A stretch of 48,427 nucleotides of DNA, taken from contig CALSCO010001968.1 in NCBI GenBank assembly GCA_943704415.1, positions 1 to 48,427 of the forward strand, written 5' to 3'. A model generated the notes under the pieces. The model was not told where the DNA came from and ran no database searches. It saw only the letters and a list, made by a program, of their open reading frames with translations. This document shows positions 17,319-31,253 of the stretch, piece after piece. Positions within the stretch are counted from its first letter, which is position 1; each line of letters begins with the position of its first letter. The translations under genes were made by a program, and so were the position numbers. The stretch is from Parvularia atlantis. Lineage: Eukaryota; Opisthokonta; Rotosphaerida.

Positions 17319-17519
17319 ATGGCCCCCAAGTCCGCCACCGCCGCCGCCAAGCCAGCTACCGCCAAGCCCGCCGCCAAGGCCCCCGCCGCGAAGGCCCCCG
17401 CCGCGAAGGCCCCCGCCCCGGCCGCGGCCAAGAAGACAAACGGCTCGGCTGTGCCGGCCGCCAAGAAGGCCAAGGTTAAGGAGGAGGAGGAGGAGGAGGA
17501 GGAGGAGGAGGAGGAGGAG

Positions 17520-17578
<59 letters not shown>

Positions 17579-19534
17579 GCCCGCCGCCAAGCCCGCCCCG
17601 AAGGCCGCCGCCCCGGTCAAGCCTGCTGCCGCCGCTGCCAAGCCTGCTGCCAAGCCTGTTGCTGTCGCGGCCAAGCCTGCTGCCAAGCCCGCTGCTGCCG
17701 CGGCCAAGCCCGCCGCCAAGCCCGCCGCCGCGCCCGCCAAGCCCGCGGCCAAGAAGGACGACGACGACGAGGACGATGATGAGGACGACGACGAGGACGA
17801 TGATGAGGACGACGATGAGGACGACGAGGACGAGAAGCCCGCCGCCAAGCCCACTGCGGCTGCCAAGCCCGCTGCCAAGTCCGCGGCTGCCCCGGCTAAG
17901 CCCGCGGCTGCTACGGCCAAGCCCGCGGCTGCTACGGCCAAGCCCGCGGCTGCTACGGCCAAGCCCGCGGCTGCTACGGCCAAGCCCGCGGCTGCCCCGG
18001 CCAAGCCGGCCGCCAAGCCCGCGGCCAAGAAGGACGACGAGGACGAGGACGAGGACGACGACGACGACGACGACGACGAGGACGATGATGAGGACGAGGA
18101 CGAGAAGCCGAAGGGTGCGTGCGTGCGCCTGGGGTTTGCTGTGCGGGCCCTTTGGGAGGAGTGGCGGGTGTCGGTGATGACACGCAAGCCTTAAAAAATG
18201 GAATTACCGTCAGAGCTTATGCATGCTGAGTGCTATGCTGGTACCAGACTGAGACACCCCGCTCCCTCTCGCCTCTCTTTCCTCTGCCCACGCGCGCGTG
18301 GTGCAACGGTGACTCACTAGGCGTGTTTGCAGCCGCCGCCGCCAAGCCCGCTCCCAAGGCCGCCGCGGCTCCGGCCAAGCCCGCCCCCAAGGCCGCTGTG
18401 GCTCCGGCCAAGCCCGTCGCCAAGGCCGCGCCTGCTCCGGCCAAGCCGGCGGCCAAGAAGGGCGACGACGACGACGACGACGAGGACGAGGATGATGACG
18501 ACGAGGACGAGGATGACGATGACGACGACGACGAAGACGAAGACGACGAGAAGATGGAGGTCGACGCCAAGAAGCCGCAGCAGGCCCAGGGCACGAAGCG
18601 TAAGGCGGAGGGCGACAGCCAGCTCGCGGCCAAGAAGGCGGCCGTGGCCGACGACGGCGCAAAGCATGAGGTCATGGTCCGCAGCCTGCCGTGGTCGGTC
18701 GACTCGGGCAAGCTCGAGCAGCTGTTCAAGTCGTGCGGCAAGATCATCAAGGCCGACGTCAAGATCGACCGCATGACCAACAAGTCGCGCGGGTGCGCTG
18801 CTGCGCTGGCCGGGTGGCGCGGCGTGCTGATGGCCGCGCGCAGCTTTGGCTTTGTGGAGTTTGCGACGGCTGCGTCGGTGCAGAAGGCGCTTGAGATGGA
18901 CGGGAAGGAGATCGATGGGCGCTCGATCAGCGTGAGCAAGTCGGAGCCGCAGCAGGGCCGCCAGAGCTTTGGCGGCGCCAACGGTGGCGAAATGTCGCAG
19001 CCGACGCGGACGCTCTTCGTCAAGAACCTGAGCTACAATGTCGACGGCGACGCGCTCGGTGAGCACTTTGGCGAGCTCGAGGGCTTCACGAACGCGCGCG
19101 TTACGACTGACGCCGAGACAGGGAAAAGCAGAGGGTGCGTCACCGGCCGTTCCCGTGCGTGCGCACACACGCTGACCCGCTCGCGCAGGTTTGGCCACGT
19201 CGAGTTCGACTCGGTCGAGTCGGCCAAGAAAGCGATGGACGCAATGAAGGACAGCGAGATCGACGGCCGCTCGATTACCCTCGACTTTGCATCTGAGCGC
19301 GCCCCGCGCTCGCCCGGCGGCGACCGGGGCGGCTTCCGCGGCGGCCGGGGCGGCGATCGTGGCGGCTTCCGGGGCGGTCGTGGTGGCGATCGCGGTGGCT
19401 TCCGCGGCGGCCGGGGCGGCAACTTCCGCGGCGGCCGCGGCGGCGACCGGGGAGGCCGGGGCGGGCGCGGCGGCCGGGGCGGCCGGGGCGGCTCGCCCGC
19501 GTTCCAGGGCAAGAAGACTTCGTTTGACGACTGA
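17319..19534 (+). CDS. NCL: Nucleolin-like protein: acidic/KPA repeats, two RRMs, RGG tail
   Basis: About 629 aa. The N-terminal half alternates KPAAKPA-type basic repeats with acidic blocks, including a run of 13 Glu followed by 18 Asp. Then [15 protein letters not shown] (nuclear signal-like), RRM1 ([40 protein letters not shown]) and RRM2 ([40 protein letters not shown]), both with good RNP2 and RNP1, and an RGG-rich tail of about 60 aa ending KKTSFDD. This is the nucleolin/Nsr1 plan, acting in rDNA transcription and pre-rRNA processing in the nucleolus. Introns: 18115-18332 (218 nt, holding a snoRNA candidate) and two short ones, each splitting an RNP1 motif after KSRG in phase 2. Confidence 0.92.
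17481..17573 (+). repeat. Trinucleotide repeats (GAG)13 then (GAC)18
   Basis: Pure codon repeats encoding 13 Glu then 18 Asp in the nucleolin-like protein. More mixed GAC/GAG/GAT acidic blocks follow at about 17757-17835, 18030-18105 and 18463-18555. Such pure repeats are prone to length change. Confidence 0.95.
17898..17981 (+). repeat. 21-bp tandem repeat, four near-perfect copies
   Basis: Four head-to-tail copies of a 21-bp unit (AAGCCCGCGGCTGCTACGGC plus C) encoding KPAAATA. The near identity at the DNA level points to recent expansion within the basic repeat region of the nucleolin-like gene. Confidence 0.9.
18164..18259 (+). ncRNA. Intronic box C/D snoRNA in the nucleolin-like gene
   Basis: Lies in the 218-nt intron 18115-18332. 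Perfect box C GTGATGA (18172-18178), box D CTGA (18249-18252) and an internal D' CTGA (18226-18229). The ends pair perfectly over 7 bp: GGGTGTC (18164-18170) with GACACCC (18253-18259), extendable by two G-C pairs around one bulge. The 13 nt directly before box D (TGCTGGTACCAGA, 18236-18248) pair with the universal SSU rRNA sequence UCUGGUGCCAGCA with a single G-U wobble. The +5 rule puts C18244 opposite the second G of UCUGG, equivalent to yeast G562. Vertebrate nucleolin introns also host snoRNAs (U20, U23, U82), so the host fits. The D' guide (GAGCTTATG) has a possible but weak rRNA match. Confidence 0.87.
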
Positions 19535-25300: not shown

Positions 25301-27899
25301 ATGGCGGGGCGCATGAGCGGCGAGGCGCGTCGCAGCACCGACGACCGCGTCTCGTCCGAGATCGAGATGGCGCACTTGAACGAGCACGTAACGGTCAACG
25401 ACGTGGCGGTGCGCGGCGTGCGCGGCGTGCGCGGCGTGCGCGGCGTGCGCGGTCTTGCTGACGGACGTGCGACGTGCCGTGCGCAGGTCGTGAGCCTGCT
25501 GTTCAGCGCGAGCAAGGGCGACCTCGTCGGCGTGCAGCGCTCGCTCGAGCAGAACGACCTGGGCCCGAACGTGGGCGACTACGACTTTCGCACGGCGCTG
25601 CACATCGCGTCGTCCGAGGGCCACGCCGATGTCGTCAAGTACCTGCTCTCGCACGGCGCCAACGTGAACGCGGTCGACCGCTTTGGCAACACGCCAATCG
25701 ACGGTGCGTGCGTGCGAGACGGCGCGGGGGGACGCTGACGCCGCAGGGCCGCGGACCAGACGCCATCCGCCAGGGCCACCACGAGATCACGTCGATCCTG
25801 ATCGAGCACGGCGCCGACAAGCCGTCGGCGGGATTTGAGCTGGAGCTGATCACGGCGTGTGCGTTGCGGCGCGTGCCCGGCGCGGGCTTGGTGCGGCTGC
25901 TTGACGCGCGGGGTGGGGCGTGGCAGCGAGCCACGGCGACGTCGACGCGGTCAAGCGCCTGCTGCTCAACAAGGTCGACCCCAACTGCCGCGACTACGAC
26001 AAGCGCACGCCGCTGCACCTGGCCGCGGCCGCGCACAGCGAGAAGATCGTGCGGCTGCTGCTCGCGGCCGGTGCGGACGTGGCGGCCGAGGACCGCTGGG
26101 GCAAGACGCCGCTGGCCGACGCTGTGCGCTCCGGTGTGCGCCTCGGTGACGACCCCGTCGTGGGCGTGCTGCGCGAGGCGTCGGAGAAGATGGGCATCGT
26201 GCTGCACGCGTCGACGATCCCGTTCTGGCGCGACGCGCAGGTGCTGATGCTGCTGGGGATGGAGGCGCTCATCCTCATCCTGCACGCCATCTTTGGCGGG
26301 TACGATGAGGGCGTGGACAACCTGCAACGCTACCCGCTCTTCCAGGACGTGCACGTGATGATTTTCATTGGTGCGTCCGCGCTTCCCGCCTGCCCTCGCG
26401 CGCCTTGCGCACTCACGCCGCTCGCCGGCGCAGGCTTCGGCTTCCTTATGACGTTCCTGCGCAAGTACGGCTACTCGAGCGTGGCGTTCAACCTGGCAAT
26501 CGCAGCGTTTGTGATCCAGTGGTACCCGCTCCTCGAGACGTTCTGGGCCAACGTGTTCAGCCAGAGCTGGACCACGCCCGTGCAGTTTGATGTGGGCATG
26601 CTCATCACGAGCGACTTCTGCGCCGGCGCGGTGCTCATCACCTTTGGCGCGCTCCTTGGCAAGACCTCGCTCACGCAGATGCTCTTCATCGCTTTTGCAG
26701 AGCCCTTCTTCTACACGCTCAACGAGCGCATCGCCTTGCAGTTTGAGATCGCCGACATCGGCGGCTCGATGATCATCCACACCTTTGGCGCCTTCTTCGG
26801 CCTGGCCGCGTCGCGCATGCTCACGCCTGCGGCCGCCCGCGGCCCGTCCGATAACGCCGCCGTGTACCACTCGGACCTGTTCTCGATGGTCGGCACGATC
26901 TTTCTCTGGCTGTTCTGGCCGAGCTTCAACGGCGCCTTTGCCGACGACACGGCCCTGACCCGCGCCGTCGTCAACACGGTCCTGTCGCTCACGGGCTCGA
27001 CCATGATGGCCTTTCTCTGCAGCTACTGGATCCGTGGCCACAACAAGCTCTTCATGGTCGATATCCAGAACGCCACCCTCGCTGGCGGTGTCGCCGTCGG
27101 CGCGACCGCCAACATGGTTATCCAGCCCGCCACGGCCCTCGCCATTGGCATGATCGCCGGCTCGGTCTCGGTCTTTGGCTACGCCGTGCTCCAGGCGCGC
27201 CTCGAGCGCCTCATCGGCCTGCACGACACGTGCGGTGTGCTCAATCTCCACGGCATGCCGGGCGTCATGGGCGGCGCCTGGAGCTGCATCGCCGCCGCCT
27301 TTGCCACGCCGGCCGTCTACGGCGCCACCATCGGCGCCGTCTTCCCGGCCATGGACCCGACCAGCGGCGACCCGCGCAGCGCGCAGTCGCAGGTGCGCGC
27401 TCCGTGGTCTGCCGGCACGCGTGCTCACAGCCCGCGCAACAGGCCGTGCACCAGTTCATCTACCTGCTCGTCACGCTCGGCATCGCCATCGCGTCGGGCG
27501 CCTTCGTCGGCTTTCTCGCCAGCCTCCTGCTGTACAAGCCGCCCAAGACCTACTTTCTCGACAGCGAGGAGTGGGAGGTGCCCGAGCTCGAGAAGCCTTA
27601 CTACTTTGACAAGCGCGGCGAGAACACGCATCAGGCCGAGAACCGCGACGGCCCGGCGATCCAGGTCTGTGCCGTTGCTCGTGCCGCGACTGTACTCACG
27701 CTCCCGGGCGCAGCGCAAGCTGCTCAAGATCCAGATGAACCAGTACCGCACAACCGACCTCGACACGCGCCTCAGCAACATGGAGGCGACCATGCGCAAG
27801 CTTCAGGCCGACAGCCCGTCCAAGGGCTCGTCGCAGCTCGCGACGACCCTGGCCGACCTGAACCAGAAGGTCGAGCGGCTGATGGCCAAGCAGGTCTGA
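25301..27899 (+). CDS. Ankyrin-repeat / Rh-type ammonium channel fusion
   Basis: About 745 aa. An N-terminal ankyrin block of four to five repeats (LLFSASKGDLVGVQRSL, DYDFRTALHIASSEGHADVV, VDRFGNTPIDGA, ASHGDVDAVKRLLLNKVDPN, DYDKRTPLHLAAAAHSEKIV, AEDRWGKTPLADAV) runs into a complete Rh glycoprotein channel: RYPLFQDVHVMIFIGFGFLM, LEIADIGGSMIIHTFGAFFG-like segment with the first pore His (IHTFG), YHSDLFSMVGTIFLWLFWPS, VDIQNATLAGGVAVGATANM, DTCGVLNLHGMPGVMGGAWS with the second pore His (NLHGMPG). The cytosolic tail has an acidic stretch and a coiled coil (LSNMEATMRKLQAD, LADLNQKVERLMAKQV). Rh proteins conduct ammonia (and possibly CO2). The ankyrin part resembles the glutaminase neighbour's. Seven exons; intron 1 starts with a repeated donor. 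Confidence 0.9.
25416..25451 (+). repeat. Four tandem copies of a 9-bp splice-donor unit (GTGCGCGGC)
   Basis: At the 5' end of intron 1 of the ankyrin-Rh gene the donor GTGCGC is repeated four times at 9-bp spacing. Because 9 is a multiple of three, use of any of the four donors keeps frame and adds zero to three VRG tripeptides. Confidence 0.75.
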
Positions 27900-28011: not shown

Positions 28012-29735
28012 TCAGACGAGCGCCAGCGCCCCCTGGTTGACCATCTTGAAACGGATGTTGCGCTGCAGCAGGTAGTTGATCACGGCCGGCCGGATCCGCG
28101 GCTGCCCGTTGGGGCTGTGCTTGCCCTGCCCCGTAATCACAAGCAGCTTGCGGCCCGGCACAATGTTGTCCTGCAGCACCGCCAGCGCCTCCTTCACACG
28201 CAGCCCGTGCAGGTCGATCGTGTCCATGCCGCGCGTCGCGTCCCGCTGCACGGCCCGCGCACCACGCAGCGCCGCGGCCCGCTCGCGGCACTCGCGCATG
28301 CGCTGGTCGTACACCCACGCCTGCGCCGAGTACGCCTGCGACACGTTGCGCTGCCCGTGTCCAAACGCGACTGCGGCCTGCCGGAACAGCTCGTTGCGCT
28401 TGCTTGCGTAGTGCTCCTCGAGCATGATTAGGCCGTCCAGGCTCTCGGGCATGCGCGCGCGCTTGATGGCCGGGGCGGCAACCTCGTCCGGCTCTGACTC
28501 GGGCTCGTGGTGCTCGGCCTTGGGTTGCGCGGCGTCTGGCACGATGCTCGGCTTCCGCAGCCAGGCGTTCTCGGTGACCTCTGCCGCGTGACGCGTCAGC
28601 TGTGCGCGTCGACCGCGCACACACCGCCCGGCAGCTCGCCCAGCGTCAGCTTGATCGTCCGCGCGGCTCGGCGCCGCTCGCGCCGGTTGACGTTGACTAG
28701 GTACACCTCGCGCAGCACGCGCTTGGTCTGCTCGACGTTGCGTCTGCGGGCGCCGTCGTCGTCGAGTTTGGTGCTGTGCGCGGCAGCCTCGCTTGCACGC
28801 ACTCGTTGGCCACGTAGACGTCGCGCACGACGTCGCGGTTGATGCTCTCGTACAGCAAGCACAGCTGCTCCAGCTGCAGCCGCTCGCGCTCGCTCAGTTT
28901 GACGGTGGCAGTAGACGCCGGCGCGGGTGCGGGCGCAGGCGCGTCGGCCTCCGCCGCGGTTGGGATCATCTCCTCGACAATGTTCATGGCCATGTCAAAG
29001 TCGTTGCCGCAGCTGCGCAGGATCGCCTCGAGCCAGGATGCGTCGGCCGTCGTGAGCACAGACTGCAGCGTCTCGAGCGCCTCGCGCGTGTCCTGCGCGC
29101 GTGCGCGCGTGTCAGCCCATGCGTGTCTCCAGCTCGCGTAAGCGCGCACCGCGCTGGTGTCGTTCTCGGCCGCGGGCGGTCCGGCCGTGGCGGGATCGGT
29201 CGACAGCAGGGCCATGGCCAGGTTGACGTCGCCCTCCGACTCTTGCCGCAGCACGCGCTCGATCGTCGCCGGGTCCACGGCTGGGAAGATGATCTGCAGC
29301 AGCGCGATGTTGTCCGCCTCGTCGGGCGGCGGCGTTGGCAGCTGCGCGGTCGCCGGGGCCGGCGGGGTTGACGGCTGCAACGCTTGTGCTGCTGGCCCAC
29401 CGTGAATGTCAACCTCGTCGTCGTCGTCGCTGTCCAACAACGCAATGGCGCCGTGCGCATCGAACGGCATGTGCGCGGTGGACTGCGCCAGCAGCACCGC
29501 AAACACCTCGTCCACGGCGCGCGTCAGGTCGCCATCACACCGCTCAACCAGCTCACGCGCGCGCTCGGCCAGCAGGTCGCCAAACACCTCGCACAGGAAC
29601 GCGACGGCGTCGTTCATGCGGCGGTCGTCGGCGGGGCCGTCCGTGCCCTCGGCCTCGTCCGCCACCTGCCACGGTATCGGCACCGGCATCGGTGCGACCA
29701 GCGGTGCAGCGAGCGGCGCCTGATCCGCGCGCGGC

Positions 29736-29767
<32 letters not shown>

Positions 29768-29998
29768 CGCTTCGACCACCTGCCACGGCATCGCGACGGG
29801 CCGGGCGGGAGTTGCCCCGGCAGCCGAGTCGGCTAGCTCGGCGAGGGTGTCGATGACGCGCTCGATCGCCGCGCCCGCCACCCCGGTGTCCACCGCGTGC
29901 TGCTGCTCCTGCTGCCCGCGGTGCGCGTCCCACACCGCCGCGACGACCTCGGCCTCGAGCGGGGGCACGAACATCGCGAGGAGCGTATCCAGTTCCAT
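28012..29998 (-). CDS. CUE-domain / DUF1771-Smr protein (N4BP2-like without kinase)
   Basis: MELDTLLAMFVPPLEAEVVA opens a CUE-like helix bundle; three more CUE-like segments follow (MNDAVAFLCEVFGDLLAERA, IALLQIIFPAVDPATIERVL, LQSVLTTADASWLEAILRSC), separated by Ala/Pro-rich linkers. After two introns (GTGCGTGCAAG near 28797, and GTGTGTGCGCG near 28622) come the DUF1771 helices (YASKRNELFRQAAVAFGHGQ, AYSAQAWVYDQRMRECRERA) and an Smr domain (MDTIDLHGLRVKEALAVLQD, LLVITGQGKHSPNGQPRIRP) with the DLHG and TGxGxHS motifs typical of Smr endonucleases acting in mRNA no-go decay. CUE modules bind ubiquitin. This layout matches N4BP2/Cue2-type decay nucleases that read ubiquitinated collided ribosomes. 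The start is 40 bp from the divergent SDR gene. Confidence 0.85.
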
Positions 29999-30038
29999 TG
30001 TCCTTGTAATACAGCCTACCCCCCGGGCGGGCGGACAC

Positions 30039-31253
30039 ATGTCGGTGCTGCGTGACTTCGGTCAGGTGCGCGCCGGCCGGCCGCGACGCAGCGCAGGGGC
30101 TCACGACGGCGACGCCAGTACCTGGCCAGCTGCGCCGTGGGCGCCGTCGCCGCGCTGCTGCAGCTCGTGCTCGCGCCCGTGCTCTTTGCGATCGAGCGCG
30201 CCCGCGCCGGCCCGCGCAAGACGTTCAAGTCGGTGCTCATCACGGGCGGCTCGAGCGGCCTCGGCGCGGCCCTCGCCGTGGCCCTGGCCGGCCCGGGTGT
30301 GCACATGGCTATCACCGGCCGCAACCAGCAGCGCCTGGACGAGGTCGCGGCGCGCTGCCGCGCCAAGGGCGCCGAGGTAGCGTGACCGCACGCACGTGGC
30401 AGGCGCTCGCCCACAGACGCGCACGCACAGGTCAAGATCGGCCTCGTCGACGTGAGCGACCGCAAGGGCATGAGCACGTTCATCGACGTGGTCGACGCGG
30501 CCGCGCCGATCGACCTCGGCATCGCCAACGCGGGCCTCGTCGGTTTCAGCGAGAGCGACGACGAGGCATACACGGCGCACGACAGGTTCTGGCGCCTCTA
30601 GCCGTGTGCGCGCGTGCTCACGCTCGCTCGCAGCTTCAACGACGTGACCAACGCCAACATGGTCGGCGTCGGCAACACCATCTTCCCGCTCGCGCGCAAG
30701 ATGAGCGCGCGCCGCGCGGGCCAGCTAGCCATCATGTCGTCGCTCTCGGGCAACTTCCCCTTCCAGGCCGCGCCCGACTACTCGTGCGGCGTCTGCCGCG
30801 CTCGTCGAGGGCGCACCGTAACTGACGCCGCCGTCGGCAGGGCCACCAAGGCCGCCGTGACCAGCCTCGGCCGCTCGCTGCGCAAGTACCTGGCCGTGTT
30901 CAACGTGGGCATGACGGTGATCAGCCCGGGCTTTGTGCGCACGGAGCTGCTGCAGAGCGAGAAAAAGTACCCGTTCGAGATCAAGCTCGAGCAGGTGCGC
31001 GCGCGTCCGCACCCGCACCCGCGCCCGCGCCGCTCAACCGGCGCCGCAGGCCGTCCCGGTCATGGTCGACGGCCTCGAGCGCAACGTGCCCGTGCTGGCC
31101 TTCCCGGGCGTGCCGAGCGTGATGACAAGCATGCTGGGTCACCTTGAGCCGGTGACGCTGCTCGTGCTCGGCCCGCTCTTTGGCACGCGCGTGGCACGCC
31201 GTGTGAGCATCGGCGTTACCGGCCAGAAGATCGAGGGCAAGAAGCGCCAGTGA
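30039..31253 (+). CDS. Membrane-anchored short-chain dehydrogenase/reductase
   Basis: An NAD(P)-dependent oxidoreductase of the SDR family. MSVLRDFGQ is spliced to a hydrophobic N-terminal segment (LASCAVGAVAALLQLVLAPV), then the Rossmann motif SVLITGGSSGLGAALAVALA (TGGSSGLG), VKIGLVDVSDRKGM, IDLGIANAGLVGFSE (NAG motif), QLAIMSSLSGNFPFQAAPDY with the catalytic Ser, and the Y-x-x-x-K rebuilt by splicing (PDYS + ATKAAV). A C-terminal hydrophobic region (VTLLVLGPLFGTR) is followed by a KxKxx-like end, GKKRQ. The membrane-anchored layout recalls 3-ketodihydrosphingosine reductase, but the substrate is not proven. Five short introns. The start is 40 bp from the divergent CUE-Smr gene. Confidence 0.82.

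Follow-up and report, generated by a model that had tools for sequence, protein, structure and literature searches.

A predicted snR77-like box C/D snoRNA with two guides to the SSU 530-loop strand in a nucleolin-like gene of Parvularia atlantis

The first intron of a nucleolin-like gene in Parvularia atlantis contains a predicted double-guide, snR77-like box C/D snoRNA of about 96 nt (18164..18259, forward strand), recognized by its motifs and by a cmscan match to the snoR77Y model (RF01178). Judging from its sequence, this is very probably a functional intronic C/D snoRNA of the snR77/SNORD65/snoR77Y kind, which would methylate the small-subunit (SSU) rRNA nucleotides equivalent to yeast U578 and G562. 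It would most likely direct two methyl marks to the SSU decoding region, one of them widely shared in eukaryotes and the other known from yeast. In the mechanism we propose, splicing of the nucleolin-like pre-mRNA would release the RNA together with intron 1; after trimming to a length of about 96 nt, it would be assembled with fibrillarin. The guide preceding a D' box CAGA (guide 1) would direct 2'-O-methylation of the U578-equivalent U, and the guide preceding the box D CTGA (guide 2) would direct methylation of the G562-equivalent G. That the RNA is transcribed, processed, assembled into a snoRNP and active in methylation at both sites is inferred from the DNA. The window, meaning the whole stretch of DNA analysed, is the complete contig C471 (48,427 nt) of a 16.25-Mb assembly with 616 contigs. 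A first-pass annotation of this window had proposed an intronic C/D snoRNA with the 530-loop strand as its target; that much stood, while its D' box was wrong and both guide 1 and the snR77 family had been missed.

The host gene (17319..19534, forward strand) is an open spliced frame with a predicted product of 630 aa. Its predicted exons, at 17319-18114, 18333-18792, 18844-19134 and 19189-19534 on the same strand, leave three predicted introns between them, with lengths of 218, 51 and 54 nt; of four in-frame choices for the second, the 51-nt one was picked because it restores the RRM. The translation has an acidic, Ala/Lys-rich N-terminus, RRM domains and a Gly-Arg C-terminus. RRM_1 was found at 3.8e-32 in the overlapping ORF 18230-19534, and a protein search with the host product returned mammalian nucleolins at the top (best E 1.8e-50). 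The acidic N-terminus, RRMs and GAR tail that mark a nucleolin are thus all present. The protein carries long Asp/Glu runs interspersed with Ala-Lys-Pro repeats (17400-18110 and 18333-18560), where the DNA is nearly repetitive.

Intron 1, which hosts the snoRNA, runs from 18115 to 18332 on the forward strand (GT...AG) and connects the exon 1 and exon 2 frames, in agreement with the 218-nt intron that had been proposed for the nucleolin-like gene. Inside it, the exon-1 frame meets a stop at 18192 and the exon-2 frame one at 18227. Its ends are predictions only, since further GT (18119, 18123) and AG (18319) dinucleotides lie nearby.

Within the intron, and all on the forward strand, the 5' arm of a terminal stem, GGGTGTC (18166..18172), is the perfect 7-bp complement of the 3' arm, GACACCC (18253..18259). 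This 7-bp stem brings together a box C, GTGATGA (18174..18180), and a box D, CTGA (18249..18252), that is, the RUGAUGA and CUGA motifs by which box C/D snoRNAs are defined. The first-pass annotation had given the same boxes C and D and the same stem, and every letter it stated was confirmed. Between them are the internal boxes D', CAGA (18211..18214), placed by the position of guide 1 and the alignment to snoR77Y, and C', ATGCTGA (18223..18229), placed by sequence and spacing; each is one letter off consensus (CAGA against CTGA, and 6/7 against RTGATGA). Guide 1, TGGAATTACCGT (18199..18210), is anchored at D' and has SSU GCGGTAATTCCA as its predicted target, with 11 Watson-Crick pairs and one G-U. 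Guide 2, TGCTGGTACCAGA (18236..18248), is anchored at D and has SSU TCTGGTGCCAGCA as its predicted target, with 12 Watson-Crick pairs and one G-U. The antisense elements expected of such an RNA are therefore present against the SSU of other eukaryotes, with 13 bp adjoining D and 12 bp adjoining D'.

The D' box had earlier been placed at the CTGA at 18226-29. Those letters are there, but for the 19 nt that precede them, the best two matches per contig on 16 rDNA contigs gave no consistent rRNA match; in all 16, the matches differed between contigs and were weak, G-U-rich or off the box. From the sequence, this CTGA most plausibly forms the end of a putative C' box, ATGCTGA, with CAGA at 18211-14 as the better D' candidate.

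Folding gives no support to the snoRNA reading. The 98-nt piece had a z-score of -1.39, and its folding was equalled or bettered by 19 of 200 shuffles; the whole of intron 1 had a z-score of -0.32. In the minimum free energy (MFE) fold of the 98-nt piece, parts of both guides are paired internally. Positions 18238-18247, in guide 2, form a perfect 10-nt palindrome, CTGGTACCAG, which pairs with itself or with its neighbours in that fold; guide 2 has this palindrome because its target is nearly palindromic. The same base of guide 2 makes the G-U wobble with rRNA and completes CTGGTACCAG.

Both guides would select defined nucleotides in the SSU. The 13 nt before box D pair with SSU UCUGGUGCCAGCA with one G-U, as had been claimed for the 530-loop strand, and the +5 rule leads to the second G of UCUGG, the nucleotide picked out before. 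The 12 nt before CAGA pair with SSU GCGGUAAUUCCA, again with one G-U, and here the +5 rule leads to the U of CGGU. On all 16 rDNA contigs, the pairing of each guide begins at the nucleotide adjoining its own box. The selected U and G are 16 nt apart, which matches the spacing of yeast U578 and G562. From this spacing and the yeast sequence, we take the two positions to be the equivalents of U578 and G562. The D' guide would thus be directed at the SSU U578 equivalent, as in the snR77/SNORD65/snoR77Y group (CL00057). Gm562 is a mark of the 530 loop, close to the decoding centre.

The target letters were taken from 16 rDNA contigs in prokaryote genome records, so they represent the 18S of other eukaryotes and not the host's own. 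Because these contigs were retrieved with a pattern containing both target sites, their 16/16 agreement is uninformative on universality. The primers Euk516r, 515fB and TAReuk454FWD1 sit on the same SSU letters (PMC7918050). That widely used primers cover them supports broad sharing of the target letters, irrespective of how the contigs were chosen. The 16 contigs (L014-L029), which carry a eukaryote-type 18S 530-loop motif in GTDB species records, are apparently contamination; labels among these records include Blastococcus, Brenneria and Planomonospora.

Both guide-selected nucleotides are methylated in yeast, which we counted in favour of the two-target reading. In yeast 18S, Um578 is guided by snR77 and Gm562 by snR40 (PMC5199042), so the 2'-O-methyl G562 that the first-pass annotation had put forward with some hesitation is real. 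Um578 is common to Dictyostelium, human and Arabidopsis, and the Gm562 equivalent is absent from the 17 high-confidence Dictyostelium 17S sites (PMC8817022). This absence counts against the explanation we prefer. Of the two targets, Um578 is the better known, while a guide to G562 is the unusual addition.

The absence of the G562 equivalent from the Dictyostelium sites also favours the main alternative, a functional snR77-like snoRNA that would methylate the Um578 equivalent only, with D-side complementarity that serves binding or is fortuitous. Um578 is the widely shared mark, and the D guide varies within the group: Neurospora crassa CD24 is listed against U5 Am62 (PMC2780460), Arabidopsis SNOR77Y-1 against LSU C2340 (PMC6461891), and Trichophyton TRnc_4260 with Um565 and Am564 (PMC3890542). 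However, the selected G is an actual yeast methylation site in the account cited above (PMC5199042), and the 13 bp begin exactly at box D. When the D guide was shuffled for composition and required to give 13 bp anchored at the box with at most one G-U, 98, 53, 39 and 62 of 60,000 shuffles succeeded on four rDNA contigs, or 0.07 to 0.16% per contig. We therefore consider a single-target snoRNA unlikely, although it is the best of the alternatives.

The family relationship of the proposed two-target snoRNA was examined with covariance models. In a cmscan of 351 bases around the element, the best match was snoR77Y (RF01178) at 18168-18260, covering the full model with 31.6 bits and an E-value of 3.1e-4, compared to a gathering score of 52 bits. 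The alignment spans boxes C and D and includes the UGGAAUUACCGUC guide, which the first-pass annotation lacked. Because the gathering score is not reached, we call the element snR77-like, by its target and layout, rather than a member of the curated family. At gathering scores, the whole 48-kb window had no match in Rfam. A search of the element's own genome with RF01178 gave nothing at E<=0.001, and the same search gave no match in any control genome. Further cmscan rows, snoZ188 in the same place (E 3.8) and, in the acidic-repeat exon, sR53 (0.018) and sR34 (5), were taken as chance. The sub-gathering Rfam score, the degenerate D' and the use of target letters from other eukaryotes all count against our best explanation. 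That the element is a predicted double-guide relative of snR77, with a second guide covering the Gm562 equivalent, is nevertheless well supported.

The first two of these weaknesses, together with the mismatch in C', would also fit a decayed relic that has lost its processing. However, box C, box D and the terminal stem are perfect, and two intact guides of 12-13 bp are retained. The element also coincides with an AT-richer island in intron 1, where two 50-nt bins from 18150 have 50-52% GC in a contig of 70% GC. Box C plus guide 1, searched as an exact pattern, occurs once in 16.25 Mb, at the 18164..18259 element itself, so no second copy of that pattern is present in the assembly as a replacement. 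Taken together, these observations make a relic very improbable.

The earlier expectation that all elements would hardly align by accident was upheld in two kinds of shuffle. In the 48-kb window, counting both strands, there is one RTGATGA...CTGA candidate with a stem of at least 6 bp, and there was none in 100 dinucleotide shuffles. For the guides, the first shuffle rates were computed on one rDNA contig, L018, and the joint test was run on 4 of the 16. The shuffled D' guide reached 12 bp in 1060, 633, 271 and 459 of 60,000 trials on the four contigs, both shuffled guides matched in 1 of 240,000, and both matched within 40 nt in 0 of 240,000.

Single motifs of this kind are short, and similar pieces do occur elsewhere. 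In viral_contigs, box C plus guide 1 matched 7 stretches, about as many as a rough chance estimate, and we read them as chance rather than as snoRNA relatives; the two-guide pattern and the SSU motif each gave 0 matches there. The G562-type guide followed by CTGA occurs at two places in the assembly, the second being a 16-nt match on C342 with no TGATGA within the preceding 150 nt. Even so, a chance assembly of motifs in a long intron is extremely improbable, given that 100 window shuffles yielded no structural candidate, that none of 240,000 shuffled guide pairs matched neighbouring sites, and that an Rfam model recognizes the element.

Components associated with snoRNAs were detected in the assembly. 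Box C/D snoRNAs are stable RNAs bound by fibrillarin, Nop56/58 and the 15.5-kDa protein. For fibrillarin, a single contig gave three matches (the best at 8.2e-39), and U3 scored 63.3 bits against a cut-off of 34. Nuclear rDNA was not found in the assembly with the 5.8S model, nor was nuclear 18S found with a 1.4-kb 18S piece in a search run without a positive control. When the 530-loop motif was searched with no more than 2 mismatches allowed, the only match in the assembly was a mitochondrial SSU.

An AT-rich, mitochondrial-type contig of 13 kb (C530, with L009 and L010), assumed to be from the same organism, has its SSU rRNA in a stretch of 33% G+C. Translations of its ORFs were read as ccmC, rps3 (542 aa, Asn/Lys-rich), rps13, nad6 and cox1. 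For cox1, three of the 120 best of 8000 matches were organism-named, the highest at 79% (Mesostigma viride); another record matched at 98%. The ccmC translation matched Histiona aroides at 46%, the sole named eukaryote among the 120 matches listed, and another record at 100%. If C530 does come from the same cell, its gene content would place the host outside both fungi and animals, and a high-GC fungus was rejected as host for this reason.

An intronic double-guide C/D snoRNA is a known kind of RNA, and the element can be compared to several relatives. The group in clan CL00057 comprises snR77 of S. cerevisiae, human SNORD65 and AtsnoR77Y of Arabidopsis, with targets Um578, Um627 and Um580, respectively. 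SNORD65 is also known as HBII-135. The Parvularia element agrees with these RNAs in the target of its D' guide and in its boxes and their order, but differs in its D-side guide to the G562 equivalent, its D' box CAGA, and its length of about 96 nt compared to 85 for the model. Its host is a nucleolin-like gene, whereas yeast snR77 belongs to the snR72-78 cluster (PMC3596301). A published table that deals with C/D snoRNAs going back to the last eukaryotic common ancestor (LECA) includes this group; bold type in it marks the rows assigned to LECA (PMC3511168). The snR77 homologue CD24 of Neurospora crassa is likewise intronic and directs its D' guide to the equivalent U (Um575), but the target listed for its D guide is U5 Am62 rather than SSU G562 (PMC2780460).

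With snR40, the likeness is by target site, Gm562. Yeast snR40 guides Gm562, Gm1271 and 25S Um898 (PMC5199042), and one snR40 hybrid around Gm562 has been reported (PMC5464676). In yeast, the Gm562 and Um578 guides are on separate RNAs, snR40 and snR77, while here they would be on one. As for the location of the element, mammalian U20 also lies in an intron of a nucleolin gene, reportedly described by Nicoloso in 1994. U20 differs from the snR77-like element in target and family, and the nucleolin host common to both is taken to be convergent.

In the literature we found, Gm562 has so far been reported for yeast only, where an RNA other than the Um578 guide serves it (PMC5199042, PMC5464676). 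The open-access portions seen contained no Gm562 guide outside yeast and no single RNA guiding both Um578 and Gm562. A predicted Gm562 guide in a protist that is not fungus-like may mean that the mark is more widespread or that it was gained more than once. A simple route is suggested, in which a widespread snoRNA with a single target site had its unoccupied D side retargeted.

The arrangement of the two guides also permits a more tentative idea. Guide 1 is directed at the more 3' of the two sites and guide 2 at the more 5' one, so that both duplexes, being antiparallel, are formable together; with a gap of 3 nt between them, they take up 25 of 28 nt in the 530-loop strand. Because this order fits simultaneous antiparallel binding with 25 of the 28 nt paired, it is conceivable, though rather doubtful, that one snoRNP would engage the two arms of the 530-loop strand simultaneously and, besides methylating two sites, would clamp helix 18 during folding. 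If so, one RNA would do the job of yeast snR77 and snR40.

Elsewhere in the window, two other reading frames drew our attention. At 25920-27899 on the forward strand, one open frame begins with ankyrin repeats, followed by an ammonium transporter domain, representing either a fusion or two adjoining genes. On the reverse strand, an open frame at 28697-30040 has a match at 7.8e-7 to the DMRTA motif, which is best known from animal DMRT proteins.
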